Of a DNA stretch of 64,000 bases, positions 35,730 to 63,611 are shown in pieces. Source of the DNA: Mactra quadrangularis (lineage: Eukaryota > Mollusca > Bivalvia > Venerida > Mactridae). The position numbers were made by a program, and so were the translations under genes. The notes below the pieces were generated by a model. That model worked only from the letters and a program-made list of their open reading frames with translations. It did no database searches and was not told the DNA's origin. The stretch lies in the NCBI GenBank assembly GCA_025267735.1, contig CM046304.1, positions 28,151,381 to 28,215,380 of the forward strand, written 5' to 3'. Every line of letters starts with the position of its first letter. Position 1 is the first letter of the stretch.

Positions 35730-38137
35730 ATGATTCGTCCACCATACTTAGATAGTATGACTGAGAGAGAAGTAATGGACAGGTATAGATTTACTAAAGA
35801 TGGTTTGCAGTACCTTGAAGACTTGATTGGTCCTAAGATTCAACCCATAGTTCCTAGGAATCATGCCCTCTCTGCTCGGCAGAAAATTCTTATTACCTTA
35901 AGATACTTGGCAACTGGGCCTATCCAATTGAATGATGGCGACCTACATGGTTGTAGCCAACCAACTGTGTCAAGGGTGTTGACAGAAGTCATCGAAGCTT
36001 TATCTTCCGAGGAGATGCTCCGAAGATTCATAAAATTTCCAACATCAGAAGCAGATTGTTATAGTTCAAGCATTCAGATGCAAGGATTTTCAAATTTTCC
36101 AAGTGTTATTGGTGCAATTGATGGCACTCATGTGCACATCATTGCACCTAAGGAGCAGGAAGATCTTTATGTAAACAGGAAGGGTCGGCATAGTATAAAC
36201 ATCCAAGTTGTTTTTGATGGATTTTACAAAATTTCAAATGTTGTAGCTAGATGGCCCGGTTCTGTCCACGATAGTAGGATGATGAGAGAGAGTGGACTCT
36301 TCAGAATGTTTGAAGATGGTATTGTGCCAGGAGGTTATCATTTGTTAGGTGATAGTGGGTATGGTGGAAGGAGGTGGCTGTTGACGCCATATCTTGATCC
36401 TCAAACACAAGCACAGTCTCTATACAACAGGTATTTAATTTCATTTTAGTGGTTACTAAATTGCATCTAAAACTAAGATTATGGCAATTAGAACAAATGC
36501 AATAATATTTTAACATTAAAAAAACTGAAAACAGTGAATACTTTTTAATTAAACACTAAAATTTATGTGACAACGACCGTATGAATTATTATACCCCCGC
36601 TTCGAATAAGAAGGGGGTATACAGTTTTACCCTTGTCCTTGCGTACGTCCGTCCGTTACAAATTTTCTGTCGCAGTTTTCTCAGGAACTATAACATGCAG
36701 CAGCCTAATACTTTGCATATTGCTTCATCCCATAGTCCCATGTGGTGTAAAGCGATTTCATGCTCCTTGCTCATCTACTTCATGTTTGTCACATATTTTT
36801 AAATTTTGGTGGGGGTATCACTAGTGAGCATTAGCTCACAGGTTTACTTTTTTTCATAACTAAGCTCCAAGATTGATGACCTTTATTGAACTAATGATAT
36901 CTTTATCATTACGCTTTCTTGTTACCAAATGGGCTCGCCTGAATACTTTAAAAAACAAAATGTTTGAATTGTGTTGTACCATTTTAGCGTTCAACATTAA
37001 AGGTCCAACTTTTGTTCACTCTACATTTTGGTTTGGACATGCAGTTGCTTTAATCAAATTTAAATGCAGTGTTATAATTGACATTACTTTGGTTTATCTC
37101 ATTGTTATCGTAAGTAATATCTTTTTTTTTTCAGAAGTCACAAAATAACAAGAGCCCTGGTAGAGAGAGGGATAGGACAGTTAAAACGGAGGTTTGGTGT
37201 ATTGCATAGACAAATTAACATGCAACTGTATAAAGTTTGCAGGTACAATAATTGATTTGTATACTTAATCATTTTTCTATTTCATTTATAATAATTAATA
37301 AAGTGTAATAAGAGTGTATGGACTCTACCCTGGAAGAATTCTATTACATTGCCTTAAGTAGTGTACAACTGTGATACTTAATTTTTGTTTTCTAAGTGTC
37401 AGTATCCTATAAACTTGACAATGAATTTCAAGCATCAAAGTCAAATTTTAGTTTGTTTGCCTATTCATATGAATTAACCTTAACATGTAAATTTAAATTT
37501 GATTTTCCCTTTGGCATGTAATGTTATAATATTGCTCTCTATCAGGAGCAGTCTTCGAATTTAGCCACCAGACTGAAGACCGAGTCCATCTAAATCACTG
37601 ACGGTCTGGTTAAAATATACAGATCACAAGACAGACTGTCTGGTGGAAATTTCAATAGCAATATAACTAAAAATGCATAATCAATCCATAAAACTTGCAG
37701 ATGCAAGTAAGTCAAGCAATTCTGCATTCAATGATTATTATATATTATCATATATGAGATAGAAACATAAGCAGTACAGTCTAAAATAACATATATGTTA
37801 TTTTAGACTGTACAGCTTAACAAAAAATGATTGACTGCAGGAACATAAATCATTGTTAGCTGTTAGTGATGAATTGTGATGTTTATAATTTATCACATAC
37901 TGTAAAACTAATTCAAATTTCAGACTTGTTCTTGCATGCAGTGTTTTACACAACATAGCCAAGATGTTAGCAATGCCTGATGTGGATGATGATTATGAAG
38001 AAGTAGATATGGAAGTTGCTCAAAATGGTCGACAAGGTGGAAATGTAGAAGGTCTTAGATATAGAGACCACTTTGCTGAAACACATTTTGGTAAATGGAT
38101 ACTTTACTTGCCATTATATTATAAAAAATGGTTGTAA
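35730..38137 (+). CDS. HARBI1-like: HARBI1-like nuclease (PIF/Harbinger transposase family), three exons
   Basis: Exons 35730-36430, 37135-37242 and 37924-38137 join in frame through GT-AG introns into 340 aa, close to the ~350 aa of vertebrate HARBI1. An N-terminal region with an HTH-like segment (about residues 70-92, GDLHGCSQPTVSRVLTEV) precedes the DDE_4-type nuclease core. The triad is complete: D131 (GAIDGTH), D208 (LLGDSGYGG) and E244 (LVERGIGQLKRRFG), the last in exon 2. A leucine-rich end with SVLHNIAKM and an acidic stretch follows, then ETHF. The ATG lies 3 nt after an acceptor, so an upstream non-coding or short coding exon is likely. A canonical donor at 38091, directly after ETHF in phase 1, would join the downstream microexons (45518-53331) and give a ~400-aa form instead. 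No Harbinger TIRs were found around it, and the introns suggest a resident host gene. Family call is firm; domestication is inferred. Confidence 0.85.
36589..36842. mobile_element. Short composite repeat in HARBI1-like intron 1
   Basis: Starts with the hairpin 'tatacccccgcttcg' / 'agaagggggtata' and ends with 'ggtgggggtatcactag' and a small perfect hairpin GTGAGC-ATTA-GCTCAC at ~36821-36836. It contains 'gtccgtccgtta'. The terminal hairpin and lack of ORF resemble bivalve non-autonomous repeats. Family name not assigned. Confidence 0.5.
37774..37813. repeat. Perfect 40-bp palindrome with no spacer
   Basis: GTACAGTCTAAAATAACATA followed immediately by its exact reverse complement. It lies in HARBI1-like intron 2, 111 bp before exon 3. 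It has the potential for a hairpin or cruciform; function unknown. Confidence 0.9.
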
Positions 38138-56830: not shown

Positions 56831-56917
56831 TTTCCCGCTTCTATTTCACAAAATAGGAGGAAAAAGTTAATGAGCAAATTCCAAAGTCATTAAGGCTGAA
56901 ATCGGCCCCGTTAGTAG

Positions 56918-57160
56918 TGTAGGGCGTTAGCGTGGCACCCAAAATTTTTTGAAAAAACCGTTATGGCACCCAAAATTTTTTGAAAAAACCGTTATGGCAC
57001 CCAAAATTTTTTGAAAAAACCGTTATGGCACCGAGATTTTAAAGAAAAAATATTTATGGCACCAAAACGAAAAAACGAATTTTGGGAGAGAAAACGATCA
57101 AAATTTGGGAGAGAGAAGAGGTGCCACGCCAAAAAGTAAAACTTTTTTTGTACCGCCCTG
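56918..57160. repeat. 31-bp tandem repeat between inverted GCGTGGCACC ends
   Basis: 'ggcacccaaaattttttgaa' starts at 56934, 56965 and 56996 (31-bp period), with a diverged fourth unit at 57027. The block is enclosed by 'agtgtagggcg..agcgtggcacc' (56918-56939) and the inverted 'ggtgccacgcc' (57119-57130) with 'cgccctgtg' (~57154). It is either a small foldback element or terminal/subterminal sequence of the DNA-polymerase element that starts at ~57.2 kb. A GT-rich stretch follows. Confidence 0.6.
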
Positions 57161-57217
57161 TGTTTTTGTGTGTGGGTGTGTGAGTGTAAGACTAGATTAT
57201 TTTGACAATTGAGAATT

Positions 57218-57227
57218 CATTCTTCCG
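57218..57227 (-). promoter_or_regulatory. Histone-downstream-element-like motif 1
   Basis: CGGAAGAATG on the minus strand, 12 nt after stem-loop 1. Purine-rich, and placed where metazoan histone pre-mRNAs pair with U7 snRNA. The same CGRAAGAAT-like motif follows the other two stem-loops. Confidence 0.5.
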
Positions 57228-57239
57228 AAAAAGATGGGT

Positions 57240-57255
57240 GGCCCTGAAAAGGGCC
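57240..57255 (-). terminator. Histone-type 3' stem-loop 1
   Basis: The minus strand reads CAAC-GGCCCT-TTTC-AGGGCC-ACCCA. It has a 6-bp stem, a TTTC loop and canonical flanks, and lies 24 nt after the stop of the Gln-rich gene. In animals this structure is bound by SLBP and directs cleavage without polyadenylation of replication-dependent histone mRNAs. Confidence 0.8.
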
Positions 57256-57279
57256 GTTGGTTGTATAAATCCGTCTGCT

Positions 57280-57741
57280 TTAATGTTTTCGTTTCACATC
57301 ATCTTTCTTTTTCTTCAGTGCAGGTTCCTCCGGCATTTTCTTACTGTGCTTGCCTTGTCCATGTTGTTCATGACGGCTCTCCGTTGAAAAGCGTACAGGT
57401 ATTTTCAATTCTTGAGGTATGAATTGTACAGCACAGCTCTGTCTCTTCTCGATCATTTCACGTACATCTTTCAGCGGGTACAGCAGCGTTTTAATTTCTC
57501 TCAGTTCTTTCAAAATGGCAAGCGAAATTTGACGATCTTGACTGAAACTGCACCCACCTGATTGTTGTTGAGTTGTTGGTTGAATCACGGATTGTTGAGT
57601 TGGTTGAATTATTTGTTGTTGAGTTGATTGTGGTTGCATCATTTGTTGTTGAGGTTGTTGATAGACAGGCTGATACATGGTAGTATAGTCCATCAACTCT
57701 GCAGTCTGCATAACTTCTCTTAATAAATCTTGATCCGACAT
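57280..57741 (-). CDS. Gln-rich small protein, 153 aa
   Basis: ATG at 57741, stop at 57280, single exon. Residues ~1-20 are acidic (MSDQDLLREVMQTAELMDY). Residues ~25-75 are a Gln/Pro-rich low-complexity stretch with repeated QQQ and IQPTQQ. Residues ~80-105 form a likely helix (ISLAILKELREIKTLLYPL). The C-terminus is strongly basic (LKKKKDDVKRKH), a plausible nuclear localisation or nucleic-acid-binding tail. No enzyme motif is recognised. A TATA-like TATTTATA lies at 57793-57786 with an initiator-like TTCATT ~30 nt downstream. The gene ends in histone-type stem-loop 1 and not in a poly(A) signal. It is divergent from nothing within the window and is probably the leftmost gene of the element. 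Function unknown; a structural or DNA-binding role is only a guess. Confidence 0.7.
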   Translation of the reverse strand: MSDQDLLREVMQTAELMDYTTMYQPVYQQPQQQMMQPQSTQQQIIQPTQQSVIQPTTQQQSGGCSFSQDRQISLAILKELREIKTLLYPLKDVREMIEKRQSCAVQFIPQELKIPVRFSTESRHEQHGQGKHSKKMPEEPALKKKKDDVKRKH

Positions 57742-57762
57742 CGTTGCTGGTTAAACAAGAAA

Positions 57763-57794
57763 TGAACGTTCTCGAAGCGCGGTGCTATAAATAG
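57763..57794 (-). promoter_or_regulatory. TATA/Inr promoter of the Gln-rich gene
   Basis: The minus strand has CTATTTATAG at 57794-57785 and 'gttcattt' with a TCA at 57765-57763, a TATA-to-start distance of about 30 nt. The predicted 5' UTR is about 22 nt. Confidence 0.55.
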
Positions 57795-58265
57795 CGCACT
57801 TCCAAGAATTTTAAGTCTGATGACGTCACGTCATCCATATGGCATGTTTAATATTTATGAATTTACGCTCAGTTGTGTTTCTTTTAAAATTTAAAATAGC
57901 TGTTATTTAAAAACGGTTTATGTAAGACTTTTTTCAATGATTGATCCTTATTCTGTCAGTAACATAGATTAATATCATGTCAGTTTCGGAGCGATTCTAT
58001 TTCTAGATTTTATTCAATGAACGATTTTAGGCGATTTTCAACCTGTGTTTCTTTCCATACTTCAATTAAAAACGCATTTATTGATTATAATATAGGCAGG
58101 AATACGTGCATAAGTGGTAATAATAACGTTATAGATACATACAAATTAAAATAATTGTTATACATCTATCATACTAGATTTTTTTAAACAAAATAGGGGT
58201 TAGATCTAAAAACACGGATTAAGTCGAAAATGTACTGAGTGATCAATTGTGACATGTTGAAAATA
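57795..58265. other. Gap inside the element, no gene seen
   Basis: About 470 bp of AT-rich sequence between the Gln-rich gene promoter and the 3' end of the next minus-strand gene. No ORF above ~30 codons and no motif that I can support. Confidence 0.4.
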
Positions 58266-58275
58266 GATTCTTTCG
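58266..58275 (-). promoter_or_regulatory. Histone-downstream-element-like motif 2
   Basis: CGAAAGAATC on the minus strand, 13 nt after stem-loop 2. Confidence 0.5.
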
Positions 58276-58288
58276 AAATGAAATGGTT

Positions 58289-58304
58289 GGCCCTGAGAAG
58301 GGCC
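58289..58304 (-). terminator. Histone-type 3' stem-loop 2
   Basis: The minus strand reads ACAAC-GGCCCT-TCTC-AGGGCC-AACCA, 17 nt after the stop of the Pro/Cys-rich gene. The TCTC loop fits the UYUM histone loop consensus, and the stem is identical to the other two. Confidence 0.8.
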
Positions 58305-58321
58305 GTTGTTTTTGGTTGCAT

Positions 58322-58609
58322 TTAACGGCAACCACACTTCCCCATGCACACCACGCACCATTTAGCCCAAGCCTTCTTGGTGGTACCTGTGGCTAAAGAG
58401 AACGTCTCTGTTTTGCCTCCACTCCAATTGTTCATGAGATCTAATTCGTGATCCCATTCACGTTTTGGAGCCATACAGGGTACCTCCATCAGCTCCTTAT
58501 GCCAGTCCTCTGGCGGCGGAGGTGGTAATGTAACATTATCACCCCAGTCTTCCACTTCTGGAGGTGGCAATCTTTTTCTAATCTCGGCGAAAGTAATTTT
58601 CTGAGACAT
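58322..58609 (-). CDS. Pro-rich, Cys-tailed small protein, 95 aa
   Basis: ATG at 58609, stop at 58322, no intron. Two related proline-rich blocks lie at residues ~14-23 (LPPPEVEDWG) and ~28-38 (LPPPPPEDWHKE), each ending in ED-W, which suggests an internal duplication. The C-terminus is a tryptophan/cysteine patch (WAKWCVVCMGKCGCR) with four Cys in ten residues, possibly metal-binding, disulfide-linked or acylated. No signal peptide, no membrane segment and no recognised family. The promoter has TATATAAG (58651-58644) and an initiator ~32 nt on. It is divergent to the myristoylated-protein gene at 58796 and ends in histone-type stem-loop 2. Function unknown. An accessory virion or host-interaction protein would fit the context, but this is inference. 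Confidence 0.7.
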   Translation of the reverse strand: MSQKITFAEIRKRLPPPEVEDWGDNVTLPPPPPEDWHKELMEVPCMAPKREWDHELDLMNNWSGGKTETFSLATGTTKKAWAKWCVVCMGKCGCR

Positions 58610-58618
58610 GTTGAGATA

Positions 58619-58776
58619 TGAATAGGTGCAGCGATTCCAACGACTTATATACTCTGGATTGACCTACAGGAATAGGATTGACCTACATCCTGAAAGTCTG
58701 TGATTGGTTCTTCAAGTACGAGTTTTGATTGGTTCTTAGTTTTTGTTCTCTTGTATTGTGTGGTGTCCCAGTTCAT
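58619..58776. promoter_or_regulatory. Divergent promoter with TATA, Inr and two inverted CCAAT boxes
   Basis: For the minus gene: TATATAAG at 58651-58644 and TTCATA around 58619. For the plus gene: an initiator-like TTCATTT at 58773 with no strong TATA. Between them GATTGGTTCTT occurs twice (58703 and 58728), i.e. CCAAT boxes on the minus strand. A direct repeat 'ggattgacctaca' also occurs at ~58656 and 58677. Confidence 0.5.
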
Positions 58777-58795
58777 TTGTGCTTGAGCATTCAAG

Positions 58796-59107
58796 ATGGG
58801 CAACTGCTTAAAACCTTCTCTGTGTGATGATACACCCTCTTACATCAAAATGGGTAACCTGTACCCTGATTTGTCAGAGTTTCAGACTGATAAATCCAAC
58901 ATCAAGATGGGTAATTTGTACCCAGATTTGTCAGAGTTCCAGTCAGATGAGTGTAACATCAAAATGGGTAATTTGTACCCAGATTTATCTGAGTATTATG
59001 ATGATGAGCTGTACAAAAACTACTGGTACTACATCTACTTGGCAGAATGTCAATCGAAGGACCCAGTCCTAAGATGGAAGGCCTTCATTACTGCTGCTAA
59101 AATCTAA
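58796..59107 (+). CDS. Probable N-myristoylated protein with three YPDL late-domain-like motifs, 103 aa
   Basis: ATG at 58796, stop at 59105-59107, no intron. The N-terminus MGNCLKPS fits an N-myristoylation site (Gly2) with an adjacent palmitoylatable Cys4, predicting membrane attachment. Residues 18-74 are three 19-residue repeats, each starting I/K-KMGNLYPDLSE, with YPDL at 23-26, 42-45 and 61-64. The DNA shows the same 57-bp period. YPxL/YPDL motifs are known retroviral late domains that recruit ALIX/ESCRT for budding. The C-terminal ~30 residues (YKNYWYYIYLAECQSKDPVL, then a basic helix) are unrecognised. Together these features suggest a matrix- or budding-type protein of an enveloped particle; this is inferred from short motifs only. 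It is divergent from the 58322-58609 gene, convergent with the zinc-knuckle gene, and ends in histone-type stem-loop 3. Confidence 0.75.
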   Translation: MGNCLKPSLCDDTPSYIKMGNLYPDLSEFQTDKSNIKMGNLYPDLSEFQSDECNIKMGNLYPDLSEYYDDELYKNYWYYIYLAECQSKDPVLRWKAFITAAKI

Positions 59108-59121
59108 TAACTAAAACCAAT

Positions 59122-59137
59122 GGCCCTTTTCAGGGCC
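59122..59137 (+). terminator. Histone-type 3' stem-loop 3
   Basis: AACCAAT-GGCCCT-TTTC-AGGGCC-ACACCA, 14 nt after the stop of the 103-aa gene. Stem and loop are identical to stem-loop 1. Confidence 0.8.
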
Positions 59138-59150
59138 ACACCATTTACTT

Positions 59151-59160
59151 ACGAAGAATA
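59151..59160 (+). promoter_or_regulatory. Histone-downstream-element-like motif 3
   Basis: ACGAAGAATA, 13 nt after stem-loop 3, in line with motifs 1 and 2. Confidence 0.5.
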
Positions 59161-59184: not shown

Positions 59185-59195
59185 TTTATTTTTTA
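59185..59195 (-). terminator. Poly(A) signal of the zinc-knuckle gene
   Basis: The minus strand carries AAAAAATAAATAT about 110 nt after the stop codon. Before it lies a short repeat of 'cacagtgac'/'cacagtgag' units (59215-59270). There is no stem-loop on this side, so this gene seems to use normal polyadenylation. Confidence 0.45.
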
Positions 59196-59303: not shown

Positions 59304-59696
59304 TTATAAGTCCATGTTCTTTGCCCGTTTACGTTTCTTTTCTTTCTTTTTTTCCTCCGGTATTTCAGTGTTGATTTTCTCCGGCATGTCTATCTTGTTT
59401 ACCTCCGGCATGTTGATTCTGTTTTCCTCCGGCATGTCGATCACCAACTTATTCTCATTCACATCTTCTTCTTTTGTTTTCAATGGACATTTGTTTATAT
59501 AATGTGTTTTGTCATGACAGTAATAACATCCCTCTGTGTACCTTGGTTGATTCAAACAACTATTCGCATAATGTCCTTTTTCATGACAACGATAACATTC
59601 AATATGACTTAAATCCTCAGTATCCAACTTAACAACAATGGCATGTACTTCAGCAAGTTTTTTCTTTAACTCGTAGATCAATGTACTCTGAGCCAT
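59304..59696 (-). CDS. Double CCHC zinc-knuckle protein, 130 aa
   Basis: ATG at 59696, stop at 59304, no intron. Residues ~5-30 form a likely helix/coiled coil (TLIYELKKKLAEVHAIVVKL). Two zinc knuckles C-x2-C-x4-H-x4-C follow: CYRCHEKGHYANSC (~35-48) and CYYCHDKTHYINKC (~57-70), the pattern of retroviral nucleocapsid and cellular single-strand nucleic-acid-binding proteins. Residues ~85-115 repeat a short unit (NMPEENR, NMPEVNK, DMPEK, EIPEE), and the tail is a lysine/arginine cluster (KKKEKKRKRAK), probably nuclear. It shares a divergent TATA/TATA promoter with the DNA polymerase, so the two are probably co-expressed. A role in binding single-stranded DNA or RNA during replication or packaging is plausible but inferred. 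Confidence 0.75.
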   Translation of the reverse strand: MAQSTLIYELKKKLAEVHAIVVKLDTEDLSHIECYRCHEKGHYANSCLNQPRYTEGCYYCHDKTHYINKCPLKTKEEDVNENKLVIDMPEENRINMPEVNKIDMPEKINTEIPEEKKKEKKRKRAKNMDL

Positions 59697-59822: not shown

Positions 59823-62800
59823 ATGTCTCACGAAGACGAGCAACCACCTCCTACCAAGAGATTAAAAACAGACAATGTACGTCAGTTTTATAATATACAA
59901 CGGAGGTCGGAAAGAAAATCAAGAAAGTTTAGAACCAAAGCTCAAGTCTACGATGTCACACTACACCAGTATGATCAATCGTATGAATTTACCAGTCGTT
60001 TATTCAACGATATGATTGAACAACTCTACGACACATGTCAAGTGAAATCAACTGATCAAGTTCGATTCTCCATTCAACATCCAGAGCTAGATTTTGGTAT
60101 TCATATACCTTTTAATCAAGCATCCAACGTCATGGGAGAATCGTTATTAGAAGAAATCGAGAAAGTGGCGCAGAGTAATCAAGCCTTTAGAATTCATGAT
60201 GGAGAAACCCAGCTAGAAATAACACATATTGAGATGCCACAAGGCTCTGGGAAGCCTCTACCATTTAAATCCGTAGATGTCAGCCATCTTATTCAAACAA
60301 AACGAAGTATTGTACGTATTGACAACAGTTCAGATTCGATGTGCTTGGCCAGATCTATTGTGGTCGGGCGATGTAAAGCGAACCAGACTTCAACACCTGA
60401 ATGGAAAAAACGTTGGCATCTTATTCGTCAATCCAAGAAAAGTCTACAAACATTAGAAGCAAAAGCGTTATTGGATCAAGTTGGTATAGGAATGCATCAA
60501 CCCTGTGGTATAGAAGAATACAAGAAACTACAAGATCATTTGTACCCAGAGTATGTCATTAAGATACGTACACAACATGGAAAAGATTTTTTATTCACCC
60601 CTCCAGAAGTGACTGAAAAAAGTCGAGTGATACACATCTATCATCATGATAATCATTATGACTGTATTGTTTCTATCACTGGATTCCTAGCAAAACCATA
60701 TTTCTGTGAATATTGTGATGTAGGATATAGTCATCGTGAAGGCCATAAATGTATACATATTTGTGTATGTTATTCACCCACCCCATGTGAGTTTGGTAAA
60801 CCTCATTATTGTTTTGACTGTCGTCGAATGTTCAAGAGTGAACAATGTTATGAGAAGCATAAATCTACGCAAGGAAAACAAAAAAAGACCATATGTCAAT
60901 CGGTGTGTAAATGTAAAACATGTGGACAGATTATTGTTGAAACGAAACGCAATCATCAATGTACAGGTACGAAAAAATGTCGTTATTGTAAAACAACCGT
61001 TGGACCAGATCATGAGTGTTTTATTCCTACGTATGAATCACCAGACAAGAAACCAGCAAAAGTACCCTTTATCTTTTTTGATTTTGAATGTCGCTTTGAT
61101 TCGGGTGAACATATTCCAAATTTCTGTGTAGCTCAAAGAGCGTGTGGGAATTGTATGTGTCAGTCTGTTCAAGAACCCTGCGCAACATGTGATGGTGTTG
61201 AAGGAGCTCGTGAAATGGTGTTTCGCGGAGAAGATACTTTAAAACAGTTCTTTTCATGGCTATTTCAATCAACCCACCGTGGATCAACAGTGATTGCTCA
61301 TAATGCAGGTGGATATGATGTGCAGTTTATTCTACGACATGCTATTACACATGGAAGTGCCAAACCCGAGTTAATCATGAATGGGTCTAAAATTATTATG
61401 ATGAAAATACATGGAGTACGTTTGATTGACTCTCTCAGTTTTCTGAGCATGCCCCTCTCTGCATTTCCAAAAACATTTGGATTGGATGAATTAGCTAAAG
61501 GATGGTTTCCATTCTATGCCAACAAATTGGAGTTTCAAGATTATGTAGGACCCTATTTATCTTTGTATTACTATAGACCTAATAGTATGAAACCAGCTCA
61601 ACGTGAACAATTTTTGGCTTGGTACAATGAACAAAAAGACAAAGTGTTTGACTTTCAATTGGAAATGGAGAAATATTGTAGATCAGATGTTGACATTTTA
61701 CGACGAGGGTGCGGAGAATTTCGTAAACAGTTATTAGAGAGTGATCAAATAGATCCATTCTTGGAAGCGACAACATTAGCACAAGTTTGTAATAAAGCAT
61801 GGAGAAAAAACTCGATGCCAGAACTGAGTTTAGGTATAATTTCTGATGCTGGATATCCCAACAAAACGAAATATTCCATGAAAGGCGTGCGTTGGCTACA
61901 AATGATGGCTTTGACAGAAGGTATTCATATTCAACATGCCTTGAACCATCATGGTGAAGTCAAGATTGGGCCTTATTATGTAGATGGATTTTGTAAAGAT
62001 ACGAATACTGTGTATGAATTTATGGGATGTTGGTATCATGGATGCCCCGAGTGTTTTCCCAATAGTGATCTGATCCATCCGTATTCCTTGAAAACGATGG
62101 GTTTGTTGTATGCCCACACAAAATGTCGTCTCGAAGAATTGAAAGATCAAGGCTACACAGTAGAAGTGATGTGGGAATGTGAATTTGAGAAAAAATGTAA
62201 AGCAGACAAGGCCTATAAAACCAGAGTAGAACGATTTTATTTTGGTCAAGATCCTATCATCCCTCGTGAAGCTTTATTTGGAGGTCGCACCAATGCTGTC
62301 AAATTGTTTCATGAATGTGAAGAAGGTCAAGAAATAAAATATGTGGACATTTGCTCCTTGTATCCCTTTGTGAACAAGTATAGAGCTTACCCTATTGGTC
62401 ATCCTACTATATTGAGTCAAGAACAGATTGATCTCACTCAACTAGATCTCTACAAAGGACTGATTAAATGTTGTGTTTTACCCCCTCAAGATTTATGGAT
62501 GCCAGTACTTCCCATGCATTGTAATAAAAAGATGGTGTTTACATTATGTCGCACATGTGCTGAAGAGGTACAAATGGGAAAGCCATGCACTCATACGATA
62601 AGGGAACGTAGTTTGTTTGGCACATGGACTCATGTTGAACTGGCTAAAGCTATAGAGTTGGGTTATCGTGTATTGAATGTGTATCATGTATGGCATTGGG
62701 AGGAGTGGAGTTCAGATGTGTACCGTCGATACATAGACAAATATTTGAAAATAAAACAAGAAGCTAGTGGTTATCCTAGTGGTGTGACTACAGAAGCAGA

Positions 62801-63611
62801 ACAAAACCAGTTTAAAGAAGACTACTATAAAGCAGAAGGCATTGTGTTAGAGCATGTAGAGAAAAACCCTGGAAAAAGAGCATTTGCTAAAACTATGCTC
62901 AATTGTTTATGGGGTAAAAATGCCCAAAATAATATTCTACCTAAAACAGAGTATGTGCACAAATTAGATCGTTTATATGAGATTTTGTCTGATCCTAGAA
63001 AGTCTGTTAAATATACAGAAACCTTTGATCATGATGAATTCATGTTAGTGAATTATACAGATGAAAACGATAAAGTAGAACCCCACTCTTCATCCAATCC
63101 TGTAGTGGCCTCGTATGTTACTGCCTATGCAAGATTAGAACTTTACAAAGTGCTTGAACCTTTAGGAAAAAGAGTCCTTTATTTTGACACGGACTCTTGC
63201 ATGTTTATTTATGATCCCAACGGGTACAATGTTCCTATCCACTCCAGTCGTTTAGGAATGTGGACCGATGAAGTGCCTCAGGGTCGTATTGTAAAATATG
63301 TAGCTTTAGGTCCAAAGAATTATGGTTATGAATATATAGAAAACGGAGAAGTGCATCAGACTTGCAAAGTCAAAGGCATTACTTTAGATTTCAATGCTTC
63401 ACAGAAAGTTAATTTTAATTCCATGGTAGAATGTGTCAAAAATCGTGATCAGTATTCTACAGTCGTAGAGTATGAATCTAGAATAAAACGACATCGGGAT
63501 CGTAAAGTCACCAGTGAGAAACAAACCAAGACATTTCGTTCGGTATATACAAAACGTATCATCATTGACAATTATATGACGGTGCCCTTTGGTTACACTT
63601 CATTGACATGA
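59823..63611 (+). CDS. pPolB: Protein-primed family B DNA polymerase (DNA_pol_B_2), 1262 aa
   Basis: Single intact ORF; the ATG at 59823 has a good context (aaccATG) 13 nt after the predicted start. The N-terminal ~290 residues are of unclear function. Residues ~295-400 are Cys/His-rich with many C-x2-C pairs, probably several zinc sites. The 3'-5' exonuclease follows: Exo I D420-x-E422 (FFDFEC), Exo II N494 to D499 (AHNAGGYD), Exo III Y618 to D622 (YCRSD). The polymerase has motif A D842 to P848 (DICSLYP), motif B K1023 to G1031 (KTMLNCLWG, with W where Y is usual), motif C D1122-T-D1124-S and K1182-x-KG. This is the protein-primed type found in Polintons, adintoviruses, adenoviruses and linear plasmids. 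The ~1260-residue length with a Cys-rich insert before the exonuclease matches invertebrate Polinton-type enzymes. All catalytic residues are present. The terminal protein is not identified. The stop overlaps the start of the next ORF by ATGA. Confidence 0.95.
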   Translation: MSHEDEQPPPTKRLKTDNVRQFYNIQRRSERKSRKFRTKAQVYDVTLHQYDQSYEFTSRLFNDMIEQLYDTCQVKSTDQVRFSIQHPELDFGIHIPFNQASNVMGESLLEEIEKVAQSNQAFRIHDGETQLEITHIEMPQGSGKPLPFKSVDVSHLIQTKRSIVRIDNSSDSMCLARSIVVGRCKANQTSTPEWKKRWHLIRQSKKSLQTLEAKALLDQVGIGMHQPCGIEEYKKLQDHLYPEYVIKIRTQHGKDFLFTPPEVTEKSRVIHIYHHDNHYDCIVSITGFLAKPYFCEYCDVGYSHREGHKCIHICVCYSPTPCEFGKPHYCFDCRRMFKSEQCYEKHKSTQGKQKKTICQSVCKCKTCGQIIVETKRNHQCTGTKKCRYCKTTVGPDHECFIPTYESPDKKPAKVPFIFFDFECRFDSGEHIPNFCVAQRACGNCMCQSVQEPCATCDGVEGAREMVFRGEDTLKQFFSWLFQSTHRGSTVIAHNAGGYDVQFILRHAITHGSAKPELIMNGSKIIMMKIHGVRLIDSLSFLSMPLSAFPKTFGLDELAKGWFPFYANKLEFQDYVGPYLSLYYYRPNSMKPAQREQFLAWYNEQKDKVFDFQLEMEKYCRSDVDILRRGCGEFRKQLLESDQIDPFLEATTLAQVCNKAWRKNSMPELSLGIISDAGYPNKTKYSMKGVRWLQMMALTEGIHIQHALNHHGEVKIGPYYVDGFCKDTNTVYEFMGCWYHGCPECFPNSDLIHPYSLKTMGLLYAHTKCRLEELKDQGYTVEVMWECEFEKKCKADKAYKTRVERFYFGQDPIIPREALFGGRTNAVKLFHECEEGQEIKYVDICSLYPFVNKYRAYPIGHPTILSQEQIDLTQLDLYKGLIKCCVLPPQDLWMPVLPMHCNKKMVFTLCRTCAEEVQMGKPCTHTIRERSLFGTWTHVELAKAIELGYRVLNVYHVWHWEEWSSDVYRRYIDKYLKIKQEASGYPSGVTTEAEQNQFKEDYYKAEGIVLEHVEKNPGKRAFAKTMLNCLWGKNAQNNILPKTEYVHKLDRLYEILSDPRKSVKYTETFDHDEFMLVNYTDENDKVEPHSSSNPVVASYVTAYARLELYKVLEPLGKRVLYFDTDSCMFIYDPNGYNVPIHSSRLGMWTDEVPQGRIVKYVALGPKNYGYEYIENGEVHQTCKVKGITLDFNASQKVNFNSMVECVKNRDQYSTVVEYESRIKRHRDRKVTSEKQTKTFRSVYTKRIIIDNYMTVPFGYTSLT

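Follow-up and report, generated by a model that had tools for sequence, protein, structure and literature searches.

The window analyzed here is a stretch of 64,000 nucleotides from the bivalve Mactra quadrangularis (assembly GCA_025267735.1, contig CM046304.1, positions 28,151,381 to 28,215,380, forward strand). Its right-hand part holds the left portion of a virus-like element that, judged by its genes and repeats, is a young and multicopy member of the adintovirus/Polinton family, and three small genes of this element end in stem-loops of the kind found in the replication-dependent histone mRNAs of animals. Two of these genes are open reading frames (ORFs) on the minus strand, one encoding a Gln-rich protein of 153 amino acids (GLN, positions 57280 to 57741) and the other a Pro/Cys-rich protein of 95 amino acids without a Pfam family (PRC, 58322 to 58609). 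The third, referred to below as the YPDL gene, lies on the plus strand (58796 to 59107) and encodes a protein of 103 amino acids that has an MGN start, a repeated MGNLYPDL and the homologues P0121 to P0123.

As the original prediction had claimed, all three stem-loops lie on the coding strand, 14 to 24 nucleotides (nt) past the stop codons, and match the Rfam model Histone3 (RF00032) at 32.7 to 38.9 bits: that of GLN at 57240 to 57255 (minus strand; 24 nt past the stop; 38.9 bits, E 4.6e-9), that of PRC at 58289 to 58304 (minus strand; 17 nt; 32.7 bits, E 9e-7), and that of the YPDL gene at 59122 to 59137 (plus strand; 14 nt; 33.8 bits, E 3.4e-7), with E values computed in 4 kb. Only the GLN stem-loop among the window's three exceeds the gathering score of 34; because the host's own histone genes score 31.1 to 36.1 bits, this cut-off does not separate the PRC and YPDL stem-loops from host histones. 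Stems of 6 bp and loops of 4 nt follow the animal consensus for the SLBP stem-loop. When the predicted pattern was checked against shuffled sequence, up to 2 mismatches gave 3 matches in the window versus a shuffle mean of 0.55 (3 being reached in 1 of 100 shuffles), and the tighter pattern GGYYCTTTTCAGRRCC gave 2 matches versus 0 in 100 shuffles. The observation also extends beyond these genes: the right part of the same element copy lies beyond the window, in the genome loci L031 and L032, and there a 154-amino-acid gene (L032) carries a fourth histone-type stem-loop (L032:2875-2890, 41.3 bits), while a gene of 75 amino acids that is present in other copies has the same histone-type end.

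Each stem-loop in the window is followed by the predicted purine motif, which resembles the downstream purine element (HDE) of histone genes and was read from the sequence as CGGAAGAAT for GLN (57219 to 57227, minus strand), CGAAAGAAT for PRC (58267 to 58275, minus strand), and CGAAGAAT for the YPDL gene (59152 to 59159, plus strand). Host histone repeat units, located with an H4 query and then read, provided five histone genes of the same species for comparison. Four of the five have GGCCC stems and H1 has GGTCC; a purine element lies 13 to 16 nt past the stem, TCTCA is present in four of the five, and [AT]TGTC, or TTTGT in H3, occurs within 50 nt of the stem. In the element genes, the HDE lies 12 to 14 nt past the stem, and most have a TCTCA...TGTC block as well. 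We scored the 60 nt after each stem against the five host histone downstream regions, using 500 shuffles, and obtained z values of 4.7 for GLN, 5.0 for PRC, 8.0 for the 154-amino-acid gene, and 4.3 for the 75-amino-acid gene (none of the 500 shuffles was as high for any of them), along with 1.7 for the YPDL gene, the weakest; host histone genes, left out one at a time, gave 2.1 to 4.3. By this measure, a purine downstream element like that of the host's histone genes is present in four of the five element ends (z 4.3 to 8.0) and weak in the window's YPDL gene. The host H3 and H4 loops read TATT (locus L078), unlike TTTC and TCTC, and TATT was seen in none of the element 3' ends compared.

Genome-wide counts bear on the possibility of a chance or repeat artefact, in which a common genomic 16-mer merely happens to fall behind genes. 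Stems of the GGCCC type have 314 matches and those of the GGTCC type 39, each versus 0 for a reversed-pattern control, and GGYTC stems are at background level (9 versus 7). A stem followed by GAAGAAT has 131 matches versus 0 for the control, and the 100 listed comprise 77 from the element, 13 from host H2A, and 10 from other owners. What lends the artefact some plausibility is a palindromic repeat family that carries the same 16-mer (L001, L015, L016, L020 to L024, L045 to L047, L049, L051, and L052). In the repeat copies examined, however, the HDE and the downstream block are absent and the 16-mer does not stand at the ends of long ORFs, and nine such loci with the identical 16-mer have downstream z values of only -1.5 to 0.9. 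[AT]TGTC or TTTGT is present in all 20 stem-loops associated with genes (10 from other owners and 5 each from host and element), and TCTCA in 15 of them; neither is found in any of 15 repeat stem-loops, whose copies are mutually related and hence not 15 independent controls. The HDE expression of this block comparison was built on host ends; it misses CGAAAGAAT of PRC and the 154-amino-acid gene, and it is present by selection in loci L014, L050, and L092 to L098. We consider an artefact of this kind scarcely credible. The 16-mer alone was rejected as a marker of histone-type ends, since 30 loci comprised 21 from the element, 8 palindromic repeats, and 1 GDSL-hydrolase element. In several of the palindromic copies, ACTCATT follows the 16-mer, as in host H2B.

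The likeness to histone genes is not confined to the 3' end. In the divergent PRC/YPDL promoter, the 12-mer GTAGGTCAATCC (58656 to 58667, minus strand) is identical to one upstream of host H2A and H2B, and a second copy, found by sequence match, lies at 58675 to 58686 on the same strand. All of the five host histone genes but H3 have the shorter GTAGGTCA at most about 85 nt from the start codon. At least two copies of GTAGGTCAATCC stand in the PRC/YPDL promoter of 16 of 17 other left ends of the element; GTAGGTCAATCC is also found upstream of the 75-amino-acid gene, GTAGGTCA lies 44 nt before the ATG of the 154-amino-acid gene, and GTAGGTCA(ATCC) is present upstream of all stem-loop-bearing element genes except GLN. 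The 12-mer GTAGGTCAATCC is absent from the 150 nt upstream of the PolB, zinc-knuckle, and ATPase genes of the element, from the window's 56.9 kb of host DNA, and from 48 kb of 13 other loci. Throughout the genome, GTAGGTCAATCC has 362 matches versus 32 for the control, and of the first 100 in the list, 70 have a near-identical PolB gene no more than 20 kb away and 6 stand beside other element stem-loops. A promoter motif common to histones and element favors the S-phase part of the interpretation that we develop below.

If the signals matter to the element, its copies would be expected to keep them, and loss of the stem-loops from sister copies with conserved ORFs had been named beforehand as evidence that would count against the proposal; we looked for such loss and found retention instead. 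In 18 left ends, the window's and 17 more, from copies chosen because they hold at least one exact stem-loop, a consensus stem-loop is kept at 18 of 18 GLN, 17 of 17 PRC, and 17 of 17 YPDL 3' ends, with the loop TCTA in one PRC copy; locus L027, in which GLN alone is whole, was left out of the PRC and YPDL counts. The GLN protein is 86.8 to 100% identical over 142 to 153 residues in these 17 other left ends. Anchoring the count on PolB frees it of the bias of stem-loop selection: the YPDL signal lies within 9 kb in 34 of 38 copies and the GLN signal in 35 of 38, where the 38 (of 47 copies) are those within range of the matches listed (100 of 131, ending on C16), and right-end and host H2A rows were left out of the stem-loop lists.

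The same copies allowed us to ask how the stems vary. One base pair is changed on both sides, as GGTCC...GGACC, in GLN of L008 and in YPDL of L018, and GGTCC matches occur at the distance expected for GLN beside five PolB copies. In 15 distinct, hand-picked stem-loops, all six pairs are intact throughout, one of them by two-sided change in three rows (one being host H1); the other five pairs are invariant and hence uninformative. A two-sided change at one pair of six was matched by 233 of 500 shuffles, and three such cells by 1 of 500. For GLN and PRC, the stem and HDE differ less between pairs of copies, on average, than the stop-to-stem and distal flanks do. These patterns bear on a passive capture, whereby recombination with the host histone cluster would have left an ancestral element with hitchhiking flanks, its mRNAs being polyadenylated downstream. 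Such an event could have delivered a host-like promoter and 3' end at once, the copies are young (PolB 93 to 100% identical) with little time for decay, and an AATAAA does lie downstream of the 154-amino-acid gene. Yet four separate genes bear the signals, each with its own flanks and spacing, and none turned up on adjacent genes; the two-sided change that preserves the stem in some copies and the lower variability of stem and HDE in GLN and PRC (not YPDL) also speak against hitchhiking. We therefore regard passive capture as unlikely.

Not every gene of the element shares these ends. The zinc-knuckle gene (130 amino acids, 59304 to 59696, minus strand; its CCHC match in Pfam is weak, E 0.059, under the cut-off) has no histone stem-loop that we could find and, as originally proposed, has a candidate poly(A) signal instead, an AATAAA hexamer at 59185 to 59190 on the minus strand. 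The accompanying claim that the choice of 3' end is gene specific also held, in that AATAAA, as a hexamer only, is found behind the zinc-knuckle gene, the putative protease gene, and the small ORFs that come after PolB. The arrangement of the stem-loops speaks at the same time to the idea that they work as DNA hairpins, serving a process such as replication, packaging, or recombination close to the element ends. The outermost stem-loops do adjoin the terminal inverted repeats, the left one of which was matched at 56913 to 57171 (259 bp, 99.6% identical by blastn, as an inverted match to L032:3116-3374). The PRC and YPDL stem-loops, however, lie more than 1 kb inside the repeats, every stem-loop is on the coding strand directly past a stop codon, and the loop and downstream block are asymmetric, like those of host histone mRNAs, all of which makes a role as DNA very improbable.

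Taken together, the anatomy of these ends, their match to the host histone genes, their retention in sister copies, their gene specificity, and the shared promoter motif, all read from the DNA, suggest that the element very probably uses the expression signals of the host's replication-dependent histones for four small accessory genes, and for five in some copies. The original proposal that histone 3'-end signals are borrowed for a subset of genes is thereby borne out at the level of sequence, the host histones sharing the stem types and having a comparable block downstream, and the sister copies retaining the signals. Histone pre-mRNA is cleaved between the stem-loop and the HDE, leaving a tail of 4 to 5 nt, according to PMC5636114. 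That the SLBP/U7 machinery would recognize the element transcripts as histone pre-mRNAs is strongly supported by the sequence comparisons, and from these we infer SLBP and U7 binding, U7 pairing, cleavage after the stem-loop, and S-phase timing. In this model, SLBP and the U7 machinery would treat the element pre-mRNAs as histone pre-mRNAs and cut them a few bases past the stem-loop. The products would be short, intronless, nonpolyadenylated mRNAs whose synthesis, translation, and stability would be largely confined to S phase, the time at which host replication factors and nucleotides are at hand. The histone promoter motif and 3' end together would place the accessory genes in the S-phase program, and the genes from PolB to the protease, along with the zinc-knuckle gene, would stay on ordinary poly(A). 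GLN, PRC, YPDL, and the 154- and 75-amino-acid genes would thus act like histone genes without being such; no histone family appears among the Pfam results for their proteins.

Several observations weigh against this interpretation. No promoter motif precedes GLN within 150 nt, and 24 of the first 100 listed GTAGGTCAATCC matches lie outside the element where about 10 would be expected from the control. Of the 30 loci retrieved with the 16-mer, 8 are palindromic repeats that lie apart from genes. For the YPDL gene of the window, the resemblance of the downstream region to histones is weak (z 1.7, with 36 of 500 shuffles as high), and among copies its stem is as variable as its flanks or more so. 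Among the matches listed, 3 of the 38 PolB-anchored copies lack both the YPDL and the GLN signals. AATAAA is common throughout the AT-rich element, inside genes too, and is weak evidence of a poly(A) signal; the 154-amino-acid gene has one 38 nt past its stem-loop, where polyadenylation is possible, which makes exclusive use of the histone-type end doubtful there. Finally, the host U7 small nuclear RNA was not found in the genome with the Rfam model or with three degenerate patterns. The model search scored 65 of 281,243 candidates and gave no match in any of 14 control genomes either; the patterns gave 7, 17, and 13 matches versus 8, 20, and 41 in controls, none of the 19 of these 37 that were folded (7 of 7, 4 of 17, and 8 of 13) had a convincing 3' hairpin, and Rfam detected no U7 among the folded matches that were submitted to it (the 7 and the 4).

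Among the protein-coding mRNAs known from animals, replication-dependent histone mRNAs are described as the only ones to have a stem-loop at the end rather than poly(A) (PMC6303110). The element genes resemble them in stem-loop, loop, spacing, purine downstream element, and their small, uninterrupted form, and resemble the genes of this host in the promoter motif and the extended downstream block; they differ in matching no histone family and in belonging to a virus-like element, and their processing is predicted. The original prediction knew of no such report for Polintons or adintoviruses. For the animal ones this stands, as our literature search, in which the promoter motif was not searched for, found no report of histone-type ends. 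For the wider group it needs qualification: the section of PMC12220804 considered reports six hits to a "histone 3'UTR stem-loop" in a collection of polinton-like-virus and virophage genomes, and none in its cryptophyte set, in one sentence without gene context, host comparison, or mechanism. In PMC8097293 and PMC11071308 a text search turned up no passage on histone or stem-loop, and in PMC11071296 only two, on histone-like proteins. If our interpretation is correct, this arrangement, in which nonhistone genes bear the histone 3' end and promoter motif, would represent a new kind of viral cell cycle use and would suggest a way for the element to time its accessory genes to host replication. 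Poly(A)-selected transcriptomes would miss such mRNAs, which would also offer natural nonhistone substrates for asking what suffices for S-phase coupling.

The element is not alone in carrying this signal. Seven of the 10 other owners of a stem with GAAGAAT are of a GDSL/SGNH-hydrolase type, with ORFs or remnants at L014 (C2), L050 (C5), L093 (C1), L095 (C15), L096 (C16), and L097 and L098 (C3), and the remainder are at L092 and L094. The GDSL assignment comes from Pfam for the L097 ORF (E 7.8e-11) and was made by eye for the other six; these loci may be of the Ngaro/DIRS type. Two of their ends have downstream z values of 7.0 and 5.5, and GTAGGTCAATCC was not found in the GDSL/SGNH-hydrolase loci, L092, or L094. 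It is an even call whether unrelated mobile elements (the adintovirus, the GDSL/SGNH-hydrolase type, and at least two further loci) have each taken over the histone-type 3' end of the host, together with the promoter motif in the case of the adintovirus, as a general niche for genomic parasites. If so, poly(A)-selected RNA-seq would systematically overlook viral and transposon mRNAs that are locked to S phase and independent of poly(A). The GDSL/SGNH-hydrolase loci look like parts of another mobile element, and some carry several consecutive stem-loops. At L092 (C9:57480700-57483500), two small divergent ORFs, one acidic-tailed, each have a stem-loop with GAAGAAT and no Pfam match above the cut-off; at L094 (C14:24386450-24387950), an acidic ORF of about 300 amino acids is followed by tandem stem-loops, including GGCTC types that are elsewhere at background level.

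The assignment of the element itself rests on several hallmark genes. Its PolB (1262 amino acids, 59823 to 63611, plus strand) is a viral-type family B DNA polymerase (PF03175, E 1.2e-38), residues 780 to 1250 of which are best matched by unnamed ENA proteins (up to 79%), with oyster proteins (43 to 44%) and PolB-C of a Rhodactis coral adintovirus (45%) as named relatives over the same region. The part in L031 and L032 encodes an rve integrase of retrovirus-like type with a chromodomain (Pfam rve, E 1.6e-11), an A32-like packaging ATPase of the A32/FtsK type (Pox_A32, E 2.7e-7), a candidate adenovirus-type protease (a weak Peptidase_C5 match, E 0.021, under the cut-off), and other ORFs without family assignment. 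Terminal inverted repeats flank the window's copy on both sides. ORFs of 274 and 283 amino acids, looked at as possible capsid and penton genes, have no match in Pfam. In these features the element resembles adintoviruses and Polintons (Mavericks), from which its histone-type ends set it apart, none being seen at divergent PolB loci of the same genome among the matches listed.

That comparison draws on a scoring of 85 of 179 candidates in the 979-Mb genome, which yielded at least 47 near-identical PolB matches (a lower bound; 93 to 100% identity, 3 of them partial) and, among those scored, 38 divergent ones at 38 to 44% identity. Within 25 kb of the divergent loci, a stem with GAAGAAT was found at 0 of 26 among the 100 matches listed, GGTCC or GGYTC stems at 0 of 38 (host H1 rows left out), and the exact GGCCCTTYTCAGGGCC at 0 of 11 on C1 to C7 (without a few neighboring rows from a single element copy). 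Neither the PolB query nor a 23-row PolB alignment found relatives in IMG/VR, nor did the alignment in prokaryote genome contigs. A stem-loop scan of IMG/VR gave three contigs that we took as chance, the longest ORFs ending at most 150 nt upstream having 28, 276 (145 nt off), and 9 amino acids. The 154-amino-acid protein has three database homologues, all from the clam Mactra antiquata. Both YPDL homologues examined keep the MGN start and the MGNLYPDL repeats, and these features may serve in myristoylation and as an ALIX late domain. Outside the element, an ORF of 239 amino acids at positions 35730 to 36449 of the window resembles, by eye, a Harbinger-type transposase.

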